A stretch of 64,000 bases of DNA, from NCBI RefSeq assembly GCF_000160135.1, contig NZ_GG729933.1, forward strand, positions 378,816-442,815, written 5' to 3'. The DNA is from Oribacterium sp. oral taxon 078 str. F0262. GTDB taxonomy: Bacteria > Bacillota > Clostridia > Lachnospirales > Lachnospiraceae. Both the position numbers and the translations under genes were made by a program. The notes beneath the pieces were generated by a model. That model was not told the origin of the DNA. It made no database searches and saw only the letters and a program-made list of their open reading frames with translations. Positions 13,986 through 51,090 of this stretch are shown here, piece after piece. The stretch's first letter is position 1. Each line of letters opens with the position of its first letter.

Positions 13986-14000
13986 GTGATTACAAGCGCC

Positions 14001-14051
14001 TAAGCGCATCCCCGCTCTCAGCGCTTGCGCGAAAGAGTGGGGATGCGCTTA
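14001..14051 (+). ncRNA. Structured 5' leader: long stem-loop
   Basis: TAAGCGCATCCCC (14001-14013) pairs perfectly with GGGGATGCGCTTA (14039-14051); the stem extends inward through CTCT/AGAG and encloses a small GCGC-TT-GCGC hairpin. It lies some 15 bases after a promoter and 140 bases before the YesL-like gene. No T tract follows, so it is not a standard terminator. Class unknown. Confidence 0.45.
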
Positions 14052-14194
14052 AGGCGCGCAGCGGGCATGAGCAAGAAGCGGGGGAGGTATTTATCCCCCG
14101 CGGAATGCGAATGAACGCCCGGATTGCGGGAGCGGGAAGCGCGGAGCAATCCGAGTAATCCAGAGAACGGGCGGCAAAAGAGCGGGGGATAGAG

Positions 14195-16984: not shown

Positions 16985-17400
16985 CCTATCGGCCTTCCAT
17001 GCTCATGACGCCTAGCCCGTCCGATGCCTCTGTGTCTGCCCGTGTGCCCGTTCCTTTGCGCTGGATGTAAGATGCTGTGCATAGATTTTGTAAAAGTCGA
17101 TTGCTTCGGGCTTCGCCCTTTCGCAATCGCCGCCGTCATTCGCATTCCAGGCCTATCGGCCTTCCATGCTCATGACGCTTAGCCCGTCCGATGTCTCTGT
17201 GTCTGCCCGTGAGCCCGTTCCTTTGCGCTGGATGTAAGATGCTGTGCATAGATTTTGTAAAAGTCGATTGCTTCGGGCTTCGCCCTTTCGTAATCGCCGC
17301 CGTCATTCGCATTCCAGGCCTATCGGCCTTCCATGCTCATGACGCCTAGCCCGTCCGATGCCTCTGTGTCTGCCCGTGCAAGCACGGCAGACACAGAGGC
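16985..17400. repeat. 167-bp tandem intergenic repeat (2 full copies plus a partial) with nested palindromes
   Basis: Unit starts are at 16985, 17152 and 17319, an exact 167-base period; the first two units differ at about four positions. Each junction carries an interrupted palindrome (CGTCAT, GCAT, AGGCC against GGCCT, ATGC, ATGACG; 17134-17177 and 17301-17344). Each unit also holds CGATTGC...GCAATCG enclosing GGGC-TTC-GCCC. The third copy ends in a long hairpin (17360-17379 with 17382-17400). No coding frame is evident. The rest of the gap to 17893 holds a CTCCTTCC/GGAAGGAG hairpin (17431-17473), an AAATTAG/CTAATTT hairpin (17486-17512) and a promoter. Confidence 0.9.
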
Positions 17401-17691
17401 GCCGTCCGGGACTTTTACAAACAAATGGAACTCCTTCCGATGTCATTCCTGAGAAGTCACGTCAATGGAAGGAGCCCCTGATTTGAAATTAGAGCTGAGT
17501 GGCTGCTAATTTCTGGAATCAATATACCGCGGATTCTCCGGAAATGCAAGTGGAAAATGAGAAAAATAAGAATAAAAAGACGGAAAATGAGAAAAATAGC
17601 GGGAAAATTGTCGTGAAGTTTTCGGAAAAAGCGGTGGAGTGGGGGAAGGGAAGAGCCTCGATAATGTGACTAATTTATATTAAAATATAGA

Positions 17692-30116: not shown

Positions 30117-30681
30117 GCATCCCGCTCTCTTATTTTCCGGTTGGATTCCGGTACCTGTGAATTCCGGCGCTTTGTCTGGTCTGCGGGGAGCGCTCATGAT
30201 TTAGCGCTTCTCCTCGTCTGTAAAGGCCGATTGCCCGGGCGCGGCCGCTCCTGCCGTCTGCCTTCCGGCTTTTCGGGCCTGCATGTTCAATGCCGCAGCG
30301 CATCTCATCTATGCGGGCATTGGACGGGGCTTTTACGGCAAAGTTTATGTATTATTTGCGAAGCAAGGCGGGAAATGGGGCAAAATCGCCTGTTATATGA
30401 TGCTGTTTTCATGCGGATATGCTATAATAAGTCAAACGCCGAAAGTGATTCCGCATGGTTCCGCTGTTTCGCGGCTCCCATCCATGCCGCCTCTTATCTG
30501 CATACCGGCTGCTATTTCGTTCCATAGCCGTAAGAGGGCGTATCATAGAGTCTTTCATCCACTCCTGTGCGAGCAGATCATGGATGGGGGACTTTTGATA
30601 CTGGAATCATAAGATGACGAAAGTCGCACGGGTCTGTACAGCAGGGGTATCAGGCCGAAAGCAGTGGACATGGAGGAGAAC
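30117..30681. other. 565-bp gap without a convincing gene
   Basis: GC-rich first half, then a TATAAT at 30423-30428 lying between the arms of an inverted repeat, CATGCGGA (30410-30417) and TCCGCATG (30450-30457). No good -35 is seen. It is probably the promoter/leader region of the nfn pair. Open frames on both strands show no family I recognise. Confidence 0.4.
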
Positions 30682-45715: not shown

Positions 45716-46174
45716 ATGGATGATAACAAAAGGAAACTATGGGTCAACGGTCAGTTCATTGAGGTTTCCGAGGAGGTCTATCAGGTCTATATGCAGGGTG
45801 ATCGCAAGATGCGCTACTTTGAGACGGATTTGAAGACGGAGCGGACCATACTGGCCGAGGACGGTACTGTGCAGCGGATCATTCCCGGCCGGGAGGATTC
45901 TCTGGATCGGTTGATAGATGACAATGCCGGGCAATTTTCGGATGCCGGTGAAAGTGTGGAGGATGCCGTACTTCGCAAGCTGGCTGAAGATGAGCTGCAC
46001 CGGGCGTTGGAAAAGTTGACCGATGAGGAATACTGGGCTTATGACAGCACTTCTGTATCCAGTTATTCCGAGAGCCTAAGGCAGGTCAAGTACGGCAAGA
46101 ATAAGGATGGGGAAAAGCTTTTGCAGATCAATCTGGCCCTGATCTTCGGAGAAAACTCCGGCCTGCCGTTCTAG
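45716..46174 (+). pseudogene. In-frame chimera: mobile-element sigma-like N-terminus fused to an IS1634-type transposase fragment
   Basis: GGAGGTGCTAA precedes the ATG. Residues 1-103 (KLWVNGQFIEVSEEVYQVYM, KMRYFETDLKTE, DSLDRLIDD) resemble the small sigma-like proteins of conjugative elements; from about residue 105 the sequence (YDSTSVSSYSESLRQVKYG to LIFGENSGLPF) is transposase. The helix-turn-helix of the sigma part and most of the transposase are missing. A deletion junction near 46027 is likely. Confidence 0.65.
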
Positions 46175-46205
46175 AGGAATCTCTCTTTCCTACAAGCAGG
46201 AAGCC

Positions 46206-46622
46206 ATGGATTCCGTCCGAGAGAGATATGGATTCTTTGTCCTGATCAGTAACGAAGTGAAAGATCCGGTCACGGCACTCCGCCTATACAGGATGCGCGA
46301 TGTCATCGAAAAAGCTTTCCGGAACATCAAGGAGCGTCTAAACCTGCGCAGAACATTAACTTCTTCCGAAAGTTCACTGGAAGGCAAGCTTTTTGTTGAA
46401 TTTGTGGCACTGATTTACCTTTCCTACATCAAGAAAAAGATGGAGGAAGCAGGATTATTTTCAAGGTATACGATGCAGGAACTTCTTGATGAGCTCGATG
46501 TCATCGAATGCTTCCGGGAACCCGGAAAGGCAGCAATTCAGGGCGAAGTCCTAAAGAAGCAGGAACAAATATATCGCGATCTCGGCGTGGAGCCGCCGCT
46601 GGCAGCACAGGAGATGAAGTAA
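46206..46622 (+). pseudogene. IS1634-family transposase C-terminal remnant
   Basis: 138 codons covering the end of an IS1634/IS4-type DDE transposase (FFVLISNEVKDPVTALRLYR, VIEKAFRNIKERLNLRR, FVEFVALIYLSYIKKKM). The middle of the enzyme is deleted between this and the upstream fragment. 46623-46830 contains a short frame RFIDDDKDLFGIRWLL that I cannot assign. Confidence 0.75.
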
Positions 46623-46830
46623 CTCTCAATCTACATAGTTATGTGCTGCGGGAATCCAGGTTACCGCTTCATCGACGATGATAAAGATCTTTTCGGCATC
46701 CGCTGGCTGCTGCACAGAATGGATATCTATAAACTCCGAAATAAGTATTGAAAAATAGACATTTATATGGTATATATTTCTTGATTCTTTTTGAAAGGCA
46801 CATGACCTTCATGTGATGGTGAAGCAATGA

Positions 46831-46859
46831 TTGACAGATAATCGATTTCGGGATATGTA
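46831..46859 (+). promoter_or_regulatory. Promoter of the ABC-F leader
   Basis: TTGACA, 17-base spacer, TATGTA. It would give a leader of about 220 bases before the ABC-F start. Confidence 0.6.
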
Positions 46860-46922
46860 AACTGTGGATGTCCTATGGGCGTGCCATACTCATAATTGGT
46901 TTGCGTAGACTGAATGAAGATT

Positions 46923-47088
46923 GTCTGTTTTTTTGAGCGGATCTGGAGAAAGGTTTTTTGATCGCAGTGAGCATTCCGGCTGCATATCTTCTGTGCCCTT
47001 TCTTGCAGCATTCTACGTAAACTTAGAAACCGTCCCGCTCTGACAGACTATCAATCAGTCTATGCGTGTCAGAGAGGGGTGTTTTTTT
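46923..47088 (+). promoter_or_regulatory. Transcription attenuator upstream of the ABC-F gene
   Basis: Terminator: CTCTGACA (47038-47045) pairs with TGTCAGAG (47067-47074), inner GACT/AGTC, then TTTTTTT at 47082-47088. Competing anti-terminator: GTCTGT (46923-46928) and GAGCGG (46935-46940) pair with ACAGAC (47043-47048) and CCGCTC (47035-47040). The ribosome site of the ABC-F gene lies in the right arm of the terminator. Confidence 0.7.
46958..47020 (+). CDS. Putative leader peptide of the ABC-F gene
   Basis: TTG start behind GGAGAAAGG, 20 codons, TAA. The peptide is hydrophobic (IAVSIPAAYLLCPF). Its position between the anti-terminator arm and the terminator fits a ribosome-stalling leader. 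Small size makes chance possible. Confidence 0.45.
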   Translation: MIAVSIPAAYLLCPFLQHST

Positions 47089-48634
47089 GTTACAGGTCAA
47101 ATCGCTTACTATAATACATACCAAAGATTTTAGAACGATCCTTCAGGACTTTGACCTTGTGCTGAACGCCGGTGACAAGGCCGTCCTGGTCGGTGAAGAA
47201 GGGAATGGAAAGTCTACTTTGCTGAAGTGGATCTATGATCCTTCACTGGTAGAAGGCTATGTTGAAGCGAATGGAGTGCGAACCATACAGGGAGAGCTTT
47301 TGGGATATCTTTCGCAGGAGCTTCGGGATGAAGATAAAAGAAAAACTGTTTATGAGTATTTTTCGGGCCTTCCGGCCTTCTGGGATGCAAATCCTTCTGA
47401 GCTGAAGAAAACAGCAGCGGAAATGGGATTTATGGATTCCCTGTTTTATTCCGATCAGGAAATGCAGACGCTTTCGGGAGGAGAAAGGGTCAAGGTTCAG
47501 ATGGCGGGTTTACTTCTTGCACATCCGGATCTCCTTCTTCTGGATGAGCCGTCAAACGATATTGATCTGGAGACGCTTCAGTGGCTGGAGAAAATGATCA
47601 ACCGGTTTCCAGGCGGGATCCTTTTCATTTCCCATGACGAGACATTGATAGAGCGGACGGCAAACCGTGTGATCCTGATCGAACAGCTGCGGCGAAAAAC
47701 AGCTTCCAGATTGACTGTGGCCAACGTGCCGTTTCGGACCTTTATGGAGGAACGGCGGAGGGCGTTCGATAAACAGGCGCAGGAGGCTTATAACGAGCGC
47801 AGAGATGAGAAAAAGGCCATGGAACGGTTTCGCCGCATTGAACAAACGGTGGAATCGGATCTTCGGAATATATCAAGGCGGGATCCGAGCGGCGGACGGC
47901 GGCTGAAGAAAAAAATGAAGGCTGTGAAATCCCTGGAGAAGCGCTACGAAAGGGAACATGGAGAGATGACCGAAGTCCCGGAAACAGAGGCCCCTATTAC
48001 GATACGATTTGAGCGGCAGAAGGCCATGCCGGCCGGAAAAACAGTGATAGAATTTCGATTGACTGAACTGAAGTCGCCGGAGGGAAGGACTCTTGCAGAA
48101 AACATTGTGCTGGAGGTGAGAGGGCCTGAGAAAGTTTGTATCATCGGGGATAACGGCGTGGGAAAGACAACGCTGATCCGGAAGCTTGCAGAAGAACTTC
48201 TTTTGAGGCAGGATCTGACAGCCTGTTATATGCCTCAGAATTATGAGGAAAGACTTCCGTTCGACCTGACGCCGGTGGAATATCTGGCGCCTTCAGGAAG
48301 AAAAGAAGATGTGACGATGGTACGGACATATCTCGGATCCATGAAATATACGTCGGATGAGATGTTCCATCCGATCAGGGAGCTTTCAGGCGGTCAGAAA
48401 GCAAAACTCTTTCTCCTGAAGATCAGTCTGACAGAGGCTAATGTCCTGATTCTGGATGAACCGACCAGAAACTTTTCGCCGCTCTCGGGTCCGGAAGTAC
48501 GCAAGATCCTGAAACAGTTCCCGGGGGCCATCATCAGCGTTTCCCACGACCGAAAATACATCTCCGAGGTCTGCGACAAAGTTTACAGGATGAGCGCGGA
48601 GGGGCTGACCTTACTCGAAAAAACCCAATTATAA
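47087..48634 (+). CDS. ABC-F ribosomal protection protein (Lsa/Vga-like)
   Basis: Cytoplasmic ATPase that dislodges ribosome-targeting antibiotics, 515 residues from TTG 47087, which has GAGAGGGG seven bases upstream; GTG 47066 is an alternative inside the hairpin. Two ABC domains: GEEGNGKST with LSGGE and LLLLDEPSND; GDNGVGKTT with LSGGQKAKLFL and LDEPTRNFSPLSGPEV. The NFSPLS form after the second Walker B is typical of Lsa/Vga-type resistance factors. A basic interdomain linker (about residues 190-300) would reach the peptidyl transferase centre. Drug class not readable. Confidence 0.88.
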   Translation: MLQVKSLTIIHTKDFRTILQDFDLVLNAGDKAVLVGEEGNGKSTLLKWIYDPSLVEGYVEANGVRTIQGELLGYLSQELRDEDKRKTVYEYFSGLPAFWDANPSELKKTAAEMGFMDSLFYSDQEMQTLSGGERVKVQMAGLLLAHPDLLLLDEPSNDIDLETLQWLEKMINRFPGGILFISHDETLIERTANRVILIEQLRRKTASRLTVANVPFRTFMEERRRAFDKQAQEAYNERRDEKKAMERFRRIEQTVESDLRNISRRDPSGGRRLKKKMKAVKSLEKRYEREHGEMTEVPETEAPITIRFERQKAMPAGKTVIEFRLTELKSPEGRTLAENIVLEVRGPEKVCIIGDNGVGKTTLIRKLAEELLLRQDLTACYMPQNYEERLPFDLTPVEYLAPSGRKEDVTMVRTYLGSMKYTSDEMFHPIRELSGGQKAKLFLLKISLTEANVLILDEPTRNFSPLSGPEVRKILKQFPGAIISVSHDRKYISEVCDKVYRMSAEGLTLLEKTQL

Positions 48635-48944
48635 TCTGAAAAAGCCGGGAACGGATTATATGGATCTGTACCTGATCCACCAGCCCTACGGAGAGTACGT
48701 CAATGTGACACCAAAGATTTGGAATCATTGGATCCCGCAATTTGATTCCGTATCGAGCGCCAATCAGGTCGAGTATAATCCATATTTTCAGCAGAAGGAA
48801 TTGCGCAGCCTGCTGACCGAAAATGATTTGAAGGAGGAAGCTCTCGGAAAAGCAGTAAAATGGGCCATATCGGACGGGATTGCCGCTCAGACAGTCCAAG
48901 AAAACGTTCGCACCCCCCTTTTTTACTGGGATATGCAGAGCTGA
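48633..48944 (+). pseudogene. Aldo/keto reductase remnant
   Basis: Right after the ABC-F stop, DYMDLYLIHQPYGEY and VSSANQVEYNPYFQQKELRSLL match two conserved blocks of aldo/keto reductases, but the sequence between them and both ends are missing. No start. A decayed fragment with internal deletions. Confidence 0.7.
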
Positions 48945-49516: not shown

Positions 49517-50209
49517 GTGGCATTTGATTTTAAGAAGGAATATAAAGAACTTTACATGCCAAAGGATAAGCCTGGTATCGTGACAGTGCCGAGCATGCAT
49601 TATGTCGCTGCGCGCGGATCGGGAGATCCGAATCAGGAGGATGGAGAGTACAGGCAGTCTATCGGATTGCTGTATGGAATTTCCTTTACGATCAAGATGA
49701 GCAGGAAGGGAGAGCATCGGATAGAGGGATACTTCGATTATGTTGTGCCGCCGCTGGAAGGATTCTGGTGGCAGTCTGAGCGGAAGGCAGCGGATGCCAT
49801 GCTGCGAAGCGACCGATCCGGCCGGCGGGAAAGCGTGGCTGGAATTGACTATGCGCATAAGGAAAACTTCCATTGGATTTCCGTGATGCGCCTTCCGGAT
49901 TTCGTGACAGAGGATGATTTCAGCTGGGCTGTGAATGAGGCGACGAAAAAGAAAAAGCTGGATTTTTCCAGGGCGGAGCTTTTGACAGTCGAAGAAGGCC
50001 TATGCGTCCAATGCATGCATATCGGTTCTTATGATGATGAGCCTGCTACAGTTAAGAGGATGCATGAGTTCATGGAACAGCAGGGTTATGAGCTGGATCT
50101 TACGGATAAACGGCTGCATCATGAGATTTATCTCAGTGATGCCAGAAAGGTCGCCCCGGAGAAGCGAAAGACCGTGATAAGGCATCCGATTAAGATAAAG
50201 GGGAGCTGA
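49517..50209 (+). CDS. GyrI-like small-molecule-binding protein
   Basis: 230-residue protein of the GyrI-like (SHS2/BacR effector) fold. GTG 49517 follows AGGAGGTAGAATACT. Typical motifs are KPGIVTVPSMHYVAARGSGDP at the N-terminus and HIGSYDDEPATVKRMHEFM near residue 175, plus HHEIYLSDARKVAPEKRKT. Relatives bind or hydrolyse xenobiotics; function here unknown. Two bases separate it from the radical SAM gene. Confidence 0.87.
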   Translation: MAFDFKKEYKELYMPKDKPGIVTVPSMHYVAARGSGDPNQEDGEYRQSIGLLYGISFTIKMSRKGEHRIEGYFDYVVPPLEGFWWQSERKAADAMLRSDRSGRRESVAGIDYAHKENFHWISVMRLPDFVTEDDFSWAVNEATKKKKLDFSRAELLTVEEGLCVQCMHIGSYDDEPATVKRMHEFMEQQGYELDLTDKRLHHEIYLSDARKVAPEKRKTVIRHPIKIKGS

Positions 50210-50211
50210 AA

Positions 50212-51090
50212 ATGCATTTTGCAAAAGCGAGAGGAATTCTGAATGGCAGCGGCGGATACTTCGGAATGAACATATACCGGGGATGCAGCCATGGCTGTAT
50301 ATACTGTGACAGCAGGAGCAGCTGCTATCAGTTCGCGCATCCTTTTGAAGATATCGAGGTGAAGAAGAATGCGCCGGAGCTTCTGGAAAGGGCACTGAAG
50401 TCGAAAAGAAAAAGGTGCATGATCGGAACAGGAGCGATGTCGGATCCATATATGCACTGCGAGGAAGAGCTGCGGCTGACAAGACGATGCCTGGAGATCA
50501 TTCTGGAAAATGGTTTTGGGGCTGCGGTTCAGACAAAATCGGATCTCATCCTTCGGGATATCGACCTGCTGTCAGAGATTAACCGGTCTGCAAAGTGTGT
50601 CGTAGAGATAACTCTCACAACTTACGACGATGAGCTGTGCCGGATTTTAGAGCCGAATGTCTGCAATACAAAGCGCCGGATCGAGGTGCTGGCAGAAATG
50701 CAGAGCAGAGGCATTCCAACGATTGTCTGGCTTACACCGATTCTACCGTTTATCAATGATGCAGAGGAGAATATCACGGCAATTTTGAATGAGTGCGTCA
50801 GAGTCGGCGTAAAGGGTATTATTGATTTCGGTATGGGACTTACACTTCGGGAAGGCGATCGGGAATACTATTATGCAGCACTTGATAAGCATTTCCCGGG
50901 AATGAAAGAGCGGTATATCAGACGGTATGGGAATGCATATGAGCTGCCGAGTCCGAATGCGAAAGAATTGTCGGGAATATTCCGAAATATCTGTAGGGAT
51001 AATGGAATCCTGTCGACACCGGATGATTGCTTTCGGTTTCTGCAGGAATTTCCTGAGCGGTATCTGCAGATGAGCATATTTGATCTGTGA
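50212..51090 (+). CDS. SPL-family radical SAM protein
   Basis: 292 residues related to spore photoproduct lyase. The radical SAM cluster motif CSHGCIYC lies near residues 25-32, after YRGCSHG. The SPL-type region MIGTGAMSDPYMHCE and the ITLTTYDDEL strand follow. True SPL repairs thymine dimers, but most short homologues have no known substrate. Tight operon with the GyrI-like gene. ATG 50212 has AAGGGGAG upstream. Confidence 0.88.
   Translation: MHFAKARGILNGSGGYFGMNIYRGCSHGCIYCDSRSSCYQFAHPFEDIEVKKNAPELLERALKSKRKRCMIGTGAMSDPYMHCEEELRLTRRCLEIILENGFGAAVQTKSDLILRDIDLLSEINRSAKCVVEITLTTYDDELCRILEPNVCNTKRRIEVLAEMQSRGIPTIVWLTPILPFINDAEENITAILNECVRVGVKGIIDFGMGLTLREGDREYYYAALDKHFPGMKERYIRRYGNAYELPSPNAKELSGIFRNICRDNGILSTPDDCFRFLQEFPERYLQMSIFDL

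Follow-up and report, generated by a model that had tools for sequence, protein, structure and literature searches.

An ABC-F gene in a 64,000-nucleotide stretch of the genome of Oribacterium sp. oral taxon 078 str. F0262 (contig NZ_GG729933.1; hereafter the window) is very probably controlled by a ribosome-sensing, three-state attenuator of transcription and translation, itself governed by a leader open reading frame (ORF) of only four codons at 46827-46841. Proteins of this family can determine how susceptible a bacterium is to lincosamides, pleuromutilins and streptogramins. The elements of this switch, their conservation and their mutually exclusive predicted pairing are demonstrated at the level of sequence. 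An earlier note on this DNA had described the gene as controlled by an attenuator that senses ribosomes and in which antiterminator and terminator exclude each other, a general reading that our results support. Its choice of sensor, an ORF of 20 codons further downstream, gives way here to the conserved four-codon ORF. The range it assigned, 46831-47090, does hold the attenuator, but begins inside the true leader ORF, without its start codon and ribosome site. The anti-antiterminator hairpin along the 5' border of that range (46833-46929) was overlooked.

A four-codon leader ORF is conserved upstream of ABC-F genes

A protein scan of species genomes matched 159 relatives, the best 80 of which were retained as loci. 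The 13 nearest (L009-L021) are the near homologues and, together with the window, supply 14 near leaders. In the near homologues the leader ORF reads ATG ATY AAC AGA TAA/TGA; it is preceded by GGTGA and lies 228-261 nt upstream of the gene. The ORF is kept in 14/14 near leaders and encodes M-I-N-R in 13/13 near homologues versus M-I-D-R in the window. We also carried out a protein-anchored test, free of any RNA model, in which only the position of the protein was used to define 78 upstream regions (2/80 loci have too little upstream DNA). A ribosome site followed by M(x)1-2 R-stop was present in 41 of these, whereas 100 dinucleotide shuffles gave 0.58 on average and never more than 3, and the reverse strand gave a single occurrence.

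Two covariance models were built, R1 from 14 sequences and R2 from 23 more diverse leaders that had been aligned to R1 (alignment A5). There are 113 distinct module places, 105 of which score at least 40 bits with R2; the eight below 40 bits are excluded from all counts of 105. The leader ORF was found at 103 of these strong places. It ends in arginine at 92 (AGA 83, CGA 8, AGG 1) and is four codons long at 85, three at 17 and two at one (L174, which has MIF too), where the script, if several ORFs fitted, favoured one ending in R or K. Both models contain the leader ORF columns, so that leader conservation among their matches is partly built in, a bias from which the protein-anchored test is free. 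Codons 2 and 3 are variable (MIIR, MFIR, MINR, MYRR), and this free variation does not point to a peptide-specific arrest. Another mini-ORF, MVKQ (46816), is present in the window copy and in only some near homologues (L009, L012 and L020).

The leader ORF lies in an arm of an anti-antiterminator hairpin

In 14/14 near leaders the Arg and stop codons of the leader ORF form one side of a long hairpin, in the window by pairing of ACAGATAATC with GATTGTCTGT; the 135-nt segments of these leaders from the ribosome site onward fold at -36 to -54 kcal/mol. The leader ORF is thus found within an arm of this hairpin, as in VmlR. Since the GTCTGT of the hairpin is also the block that pairs with the left arm of the terminator, the hairpin is best described as an anti-antiterminator. 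Covariation in homologues, which the earlier note had named as a check, was borne out for this element, with double changes at 13 of its 23 pairs in the 23 diverse leaders. The cells with a double change numbered 39, compared with 11.3 +- 3.3 in shuffles and 0-10 when the partner was slid by 1-3 columns, counts that are favoured by an alignment fitted to the model structure, with rows L016 and L027 of the 23 also in R1. A5 omits L131 and matches above an E value of 0.038.

A conserved hairpin could instead be a metabolite riboswitch or a protein-binding leader, with the mini-ORF an accident of the stem. Because the Arg-stop codons are also built into helix A, structure accounts for some of their conservation; across the 23 leaders the first base of the Arg codon stands in an A-U pair in 9, in a C-G pair in 2, unpaired in 3 and at a gap in 9. 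Against this, the leader ATG, ribosome site and reading frame are conserved outside the stem, the ORF is four or three codons long in 102/103 cases and the arginine survives codon changes. The genes behind the leader are moreover mostly ABC-F genes, and no Rfam family matches. We consider a riboswitch or protein-binding leader very unlikely.

Antiterminator and terminator pairing are mutually exclusive

The earlier description of a strong terminator, with the ABC-F ribosome site (GAGAGGGG) in its right arm, and of two blocks further upstream that can pair with its left arm is confirmed here. GTCTGT is complementary to ACAGAC and GAGCGG to CCGCTC, with the pairs kept across the 14 near leaders; a third complementary block (46903-46913 with 47055-47065) had gone unnoticed. 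Folding of 46900-47100, most of the range for which a folding check had been suggested, gave -61.1 kcal/mol (z -2.45, with 4/200 shuffles equally good) and all three blocks in the minimum-energy structure. Across the 14 leaders, standard pairs make up 96.4% of cells in the antiterminator and 96.2% in the terminator, versus 31-43% and 28-50%, respectively, when the partner was slid by 1-3 columns. The helices of both are nearly invariant. Conserved pairing and simulation thus indicate an intrinsic terminator before the gene and an antiterminator that excludes it.

A terminator was located behind 96/105 strong places, and the 3' arm of the hairpin (P2) pairs with the terminator left arm and loop above the shuffled mean in 95 of these 96. 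In one run the terminator finder took an incorrect short hairpin as the terminator of the window and returned nothing for 7/37 leaders. That this is an ordinary, constitutively leaky terminator with complementarity arising by chance is barely credible, given that the three-state pairing and the leader ORF are conserved in 14 leaders and recovered across genera by the RNA model.

A ribosome on the leader ORF switches the simulated fold

The growing window RNA was folded with or without a 30-nt ribosome mask. The mask 46813-46842 corresponds to the leader AUG in the P site, using the toeprint 16 nt downstream of the A that is reported for VmlR (PMC9226507). At full length and without a ribosome, the anti-antiterminator scored 1.0, the terminator 0.94 and AT1 of the antiterminator 0.0. 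A ribosome on the leader AUG led to the loss of helix A, with AT1 at 0.99 and AT2 at 0.96 at RNA end 47066, where the right arm is yet to be transcribed. At RNA end 47090, a ribosome placed three codons downstream of the AUG position gave AT1 0.91 and terminator 0.08. Without the mask the terminator prevails (at least 0.74) in 13/14 leaders, and with it AT1 reaches at least 0.71 at intermediate length in 13/14.

The simulations also bear on two other ORFs. The earlier note held the 20-codon ORF at 46958 to be the drug-sensing leader, stalling on which would favour antitermination. Its letters do exist, and its TTG is preceded by a Shine-Dalgarno-like GGAGAAAGG, but it is not conserved as a feature: the start codon is found in 0/13 near homologues, in which the region 46945-47033 measures 57-91 nt, lengths that break the 20-codon frame. 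Its position is 3' of the anti-antiterminator and between the two strands of the antiterminator, and seven mask positions along it left the fold unswitched in silico (AT1 0.08-0.13 and terminator 0.94, versus 0.13 and 0.94 without a ribosome). Drug sensing by this ORF is highly improbable. Even less can be said for the overlapping mini-ORF at 46802 (MTFM-stop) as sensor or co-sensor, which we regard as extremely improbable. In 12/13 near homologues an ORF begins at the same ATG, 25 nt upstream of the MINR start codon, with differing peptides of 4-6 codons (MIYM, MIFM, MMLMWR), but L013 lacks it, and no such ORF is listed for L027, L030, L031, L034 and L035, which are more distant. Its ATG belongs to the CACATG/CATGTG hairpin, and masks at P-sites 46800 and 46806 were without effect (AT1 0.14).

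Several results weigh against control by the four-codon ORF as set out here. The AUG-masked window is about evenly divided at RNA end 47090 (0.41-0.55 each, depending on one mask nucleotide). Nor is the mask effect unique, as P-sites 46824-46902 in 6-nt steps, except 46878, all give AT1 of at least 0.82 at 47066. Without a ribosome, AT1 already exceeds 0.5 at intermediate length in 7/14 leaders; with one, the terminator regains the full-length RNA (at least 0.81) in 10/14, so that antitermination would have to be kinetic. L018 barely forms the modelled terminator (0.02) and L020 barely the antiterminator (0.15). The covariation seen in the anti-antiterminator does not extend to the other helices, with double changes at 0 antiterminator pairs and 1 terminator pair in the 14 leaders, neither beyond shuffles. 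Pairing of P2 with the left arm reached p<=0.05 in only 57/96 cases, or 49/83 distinct ones, and an orientation (reverse-complement) control did not discriminate (52/96). An earlier P2 run, whose search window clipped part of P2, had given p<=0.05 in 29/90; the rerun used a longer P2 and a slightly wider terminator search. Finally, the exact M(x)1-2 R-stop motif is missing in 37/78 protein homologues, several of which have other tiny ORFs (MLV, MRK, MRI, MIK) and some none visible.

Proposed mechanism

In the absence of drug, the ribosome would quit the leader ORF at once and the Arg-stop codons would pair into the anti-antiterminator. The terminator would then form and RNA polymerase would halt at the ABC-F start codon, and any read-through RNA would have the ABC-F ribosome site buried in the terminator. 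A ribosome arrested by drug on the leader AUG or a later codon would mask the RNA to about 46842 and so cover helix A almost completely. The 3' arm released in this way (GTCTGT..GAGCGG, then 46903-46913) would pair with the left arm and the loop of the terminator as these emerge, allowing transcription to continue and exposing the ABC-F ribosome site. We infer from these arrangements that the leader ORF is translated, that arrest is drug-dependent and that antitermination takes place in the cell. By analogy with VmlR, CplR and Are5sc, the inducers would be early-arrest drugs, namely lincosamides, pleuromutilins or streptogramin A.

The same switch might instead answer to slow translation in general, such as an initiation block or a shortage of amino acids or ribosomes, and not to a specific drug class. 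The free variation of leader codons 2 and 3 would suit such a signal, and VmlR is reported to be induced by ribosome assembly defects as well (PMC9226507). The cargo, however, is dominated by ABC-F genes, and we consider a general signal less likely than not.

The ABC-F protein

The window protein is identified as ABC-F by NCBIfam and Pfam profiles and scores 371.5 bits with the NCBIfam ribosomal protection-like ABC-F model, just under the cut-off of 380. It falls short of the CplR protein model (213 bits versus a cut-off of 780). Its best sequence matches among solved structures are VgaL (nearest, 193 bits) and VmlR2. In a structure model with a mean pLDDT of 90.3, a two-helix linker connects two ABC domains; among its fold matches PoxtA and VmlR2 rank highest, closely followed by human ABCF1, Uup, EttA, Sal(B), VgaL, YheS and YbiT. 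Judged from sequence and model, a resistance function is no more than likely, as the profile score lies just under the cut-off and the fold matches are of mixed ABC-F kinds. The gene is accessory, being carried by 1/17 genomes of the genus, the window's own (E<=1e-80), and by 54/397 genomes of the family (E<=1e-130).

Distribution of the leader and its downstream genes

We searched overlapping genome samples with both models, applying stricter filters in scans over 40 genomes. Opposite-strand matches at the same places were dropped (13/74 and 6/60 in two sets), and doubly fetched places (L122/L133, L129/L138, L178/L202, L179/L203) were counted once. Among 397 family genomes, R1 gave 14 matches in 13 genomes (E<=0.01). 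Nine of these precede a window-type ABC-F gene (window included) and four a different, Lsa-like one, whose best NCBIfam match is the Lsa family at 522.7 bits versus a cut-off of 750, the protein being cut by the locus end. The remaining match, L131, lies near a contig end before what by eye reads as a broken Lsa-like start. R2 found 51 matches in 46/392 genomes of the order sample (E<=0.001), and matched 11/391 genomes of the class sample, two of the 11 outside the order. In one genus 52/79 genomes carry the module, in up to three copies, and in another family 4/16 genomes gave weak matches (E<=0.01). The window's own genome has one copy. Named loci among the relatives are mostly Lachnospiraceae. 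The leader has no blastn match in plasmids and phages (E<=1e-3), and the ABC-F protein none in plasmids at E<=1e-60. Rfam release 15 gave no match at gathering score over the window leader, only two matches far below threshold on the leader region at E up to 5, and none on 20 related loci.

Taking as downstream class the best same-strand tblastn match within 1.9 kb, which is not always the first ORF, an ABC-F gene lies behind 91/105 strong places. These comprise 48 of window type, 30 Lsa-like and 13 of a third ABC-F type, one tested member of which passes the NCBIfam ribosomal protection-like ABC-F cut-off (455 versus 380 bits). The others are GNAT acetyltransferases of one type (5), uracil-DNA-glycosylase-like genes (2) and a DJ-1/PfpI gene (1), Pfam names having been assigned for five cargo proteins. 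None of these classes is found at 6/105 (L131, L200, L214, L218, L232, L233), where by eye L214 has a permease and L218 another GNAT. Among weaker matches, a GNAT of another type stands behind L178 (33.4 bits) and a DUF2785 gene behind L179 (32.8 bits). The GNAT gene directly follows the leader at L144, L199, L213 and L225. At L207 a truncated window-type ABC-F gene comes first and the GNAT lies at +809, as if loss of the ABC-F gene might have brought the GNAT under the leader. The placement at these five loci is possibly a cargo swap.

We tentatively propose, at somewhat less than an even chance, that the MxxR leader represents an unnamed class of RNA in the window's order (probably Lachnospirales) and serves as an exchangeable sensor of ribosome arrest. 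Three or more ABC-F subfamilies would have recruited it, as would acetyltransferase, uracil-DNA-glycosylase-like, DJ-1/PfpI and DUF2785 genes. The non-ABC-F genes behind it would then be undiscovered drug-response genes that can be found via the leader.

Two leaders, L200 and L234, are seemingly orphaned, without an intact long ORF directly behind the terminator. A repeat-like stretch (CGCTC.GC..GGATG) between terminator and gene is, by eye, common to L127, L162, L167, L214 and L218.

Relation to known leaders

The principle is a known one, and the window leader would work like those of VmlR, CplR and Are5sc. In the MsrD leader of streptococci, macrolides reportedly arrest a particular leader peptide, which differs from the early arrest envisaged for the window. 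MsrD is similar in being an ABC-F gene that responds to a ribosome drug, the macrolides (PMC10314930). The CplR leader of Clostridioides difficile combines transcription and translation attenuation, as is proposed for the window, and has in common with it a tiny ORF in a 5' hairpin and a terminator that extends to the start codon and sequesters the ribosome site of the gene (PMC10201436). Its ORF has the consensus MR[I/M], whereas that of the window group is mostly M-x-x-R (MIDR in the window, MINR in homologues). The VmlR leader of Bacillus subtilis likewise has its ORF inside an anti-antiterminator hairpin, an antiterminator and an intrinsic terminator; it differs from the window in its leader MIN and in a separate hairpin that partly sequesters the gene's ribosome site, and NusG-dependent pausing has been shown for it (PMC9226507). 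Are5sc and TiaA of Streptomyces coelicolor also have short leader ORFs (MLV for Are5sc), on which toeprinting demonstrated start-codon arrest by lincosamides, tiamulin and pristinamycin IIA; the leader sequences are different and the proteins are those of actinomycetes (PMC12421871).

Neither the MxxR leader nor this RNA group was found in the accessible portions of a paper on new bacterial RNAs (PMC11109978) and of the uORF4u paper (PMC10219788). No description of either was found in the open-access literature searched, in which the motif itself was not a search term. What is new is an RNA group with no Rfam match, a module at 105 strong places, 91 with ABC-F genes of three types and some with other genes. 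The group is present in many related gut and rumen bacteria. If the proposal is correct, inducible resistance under one recognisable RNA module is common in Lachnospiraceae, which are major commensals of the gut and rumen, the sensor readily escapes notice on account of its mere four codons, and the module offers a sequence handle for finding further drug-response genes.

Locus layout

The elements of the leader are collected in Table 1. A promoter upstream, as the earlier note had it, is matched by a promoter-like sequence whose consensus in the alignment of the 14 leaders is TTGAAA-17-TATAAT. A simple promoter and terminator consensus scan of the window listed neither the attenuator promoter nor the attenuator terminator, because its rules require a T ending the -10 and a loop of 3-8. 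The unbroken run of seven T behind the anti-antiterminator is kept in only some near homologues. The first two letters of the ABC-F start codon are the last two of the terminator's own seven-T run, so that termination would fall on the start codon. In the near homologues the start column reads TTG in 12/13 and ATG in 1/13.

Table 1 Elements of the ABC-F leader in the window
Feature	Position	Strand	Basis
Promoter-like -35 TTGAAA (46748-46753), 17 nt, -10 TATATA (46771-46776)	46748-46776	+	Sequence; 14-leader consensus
Short 5' hairpin CACATGA/TCATGTG	46799-46815	+	Fold; nearly invariant across 14 leaders
Leader-ORF ribosome site GGTGAAG	46818-46824	+	Sequence and homologues
Leader ORF ATG ATT GAC AGA TAA (M-I-D-R-stop)	46827-46841	+	Conservation in homologues
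Anti-antiterminator hairpin	46833-46929	+	Fold and compensatory changes
Helix A 46834-46843/46919-46928; helix B 46847-46851/46910-46914; helix C 46854-46862/46899-46907	Within anti-antiterminator	+	
Antiterminator 5' strand: 46903-46913, GTCTGT 46923-46928, GAGCGG 46935-46940	46903-46940	+	
T-run behind anti-antiterminator hairpin, possible pause or early termination point	46928-46934	+	Sequence
20-codon TTG ORF of the earlier note, probably not part of the switch	46958-47020	+	Unconserved; masking without effect in silico
Antiterminator 3' strand: CCGCTC 47035-47040, ACAGAC 47043-47048, 47055-47065	47035-47065	+	
Intrinsic terminator: stem 47034-47078, T-run (seven T) 47082-47088	47034-47088	+	Fold and conserved pairs
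ABC-F ribosome site GAGAGGGG within terminator right arm	47072-47079	+	Sequence; arm aligned in 14 leaders
ABC-F gene, TTG start	47087-48634	+	NCBIfam/Pfam and fold

Directly upstream, the leader is adjoined by an IS1634-type transposase remnant (45716-46622) in two ORFs, 45716-46174 and 46206-46622. Directly behind the ABC-F gene lies a 94-aa ORF (48660-48944) with no Pfam or NCBIfam match, which by eye resembles an aldo/keto reductase fragment. Further on, 49517-51090 encodes a GyrI-like protein (PF06445) and, behind it, a radical SAM protein closest to the PA0069 type, below the cut-off of that model. The window also contains four Clostridiales-1 RNAs (RF01699), at 13987-14161 on the + strand and at 17255-17420, 17089-17222 and 30446-30609 on the - strand, two of them adjacent.

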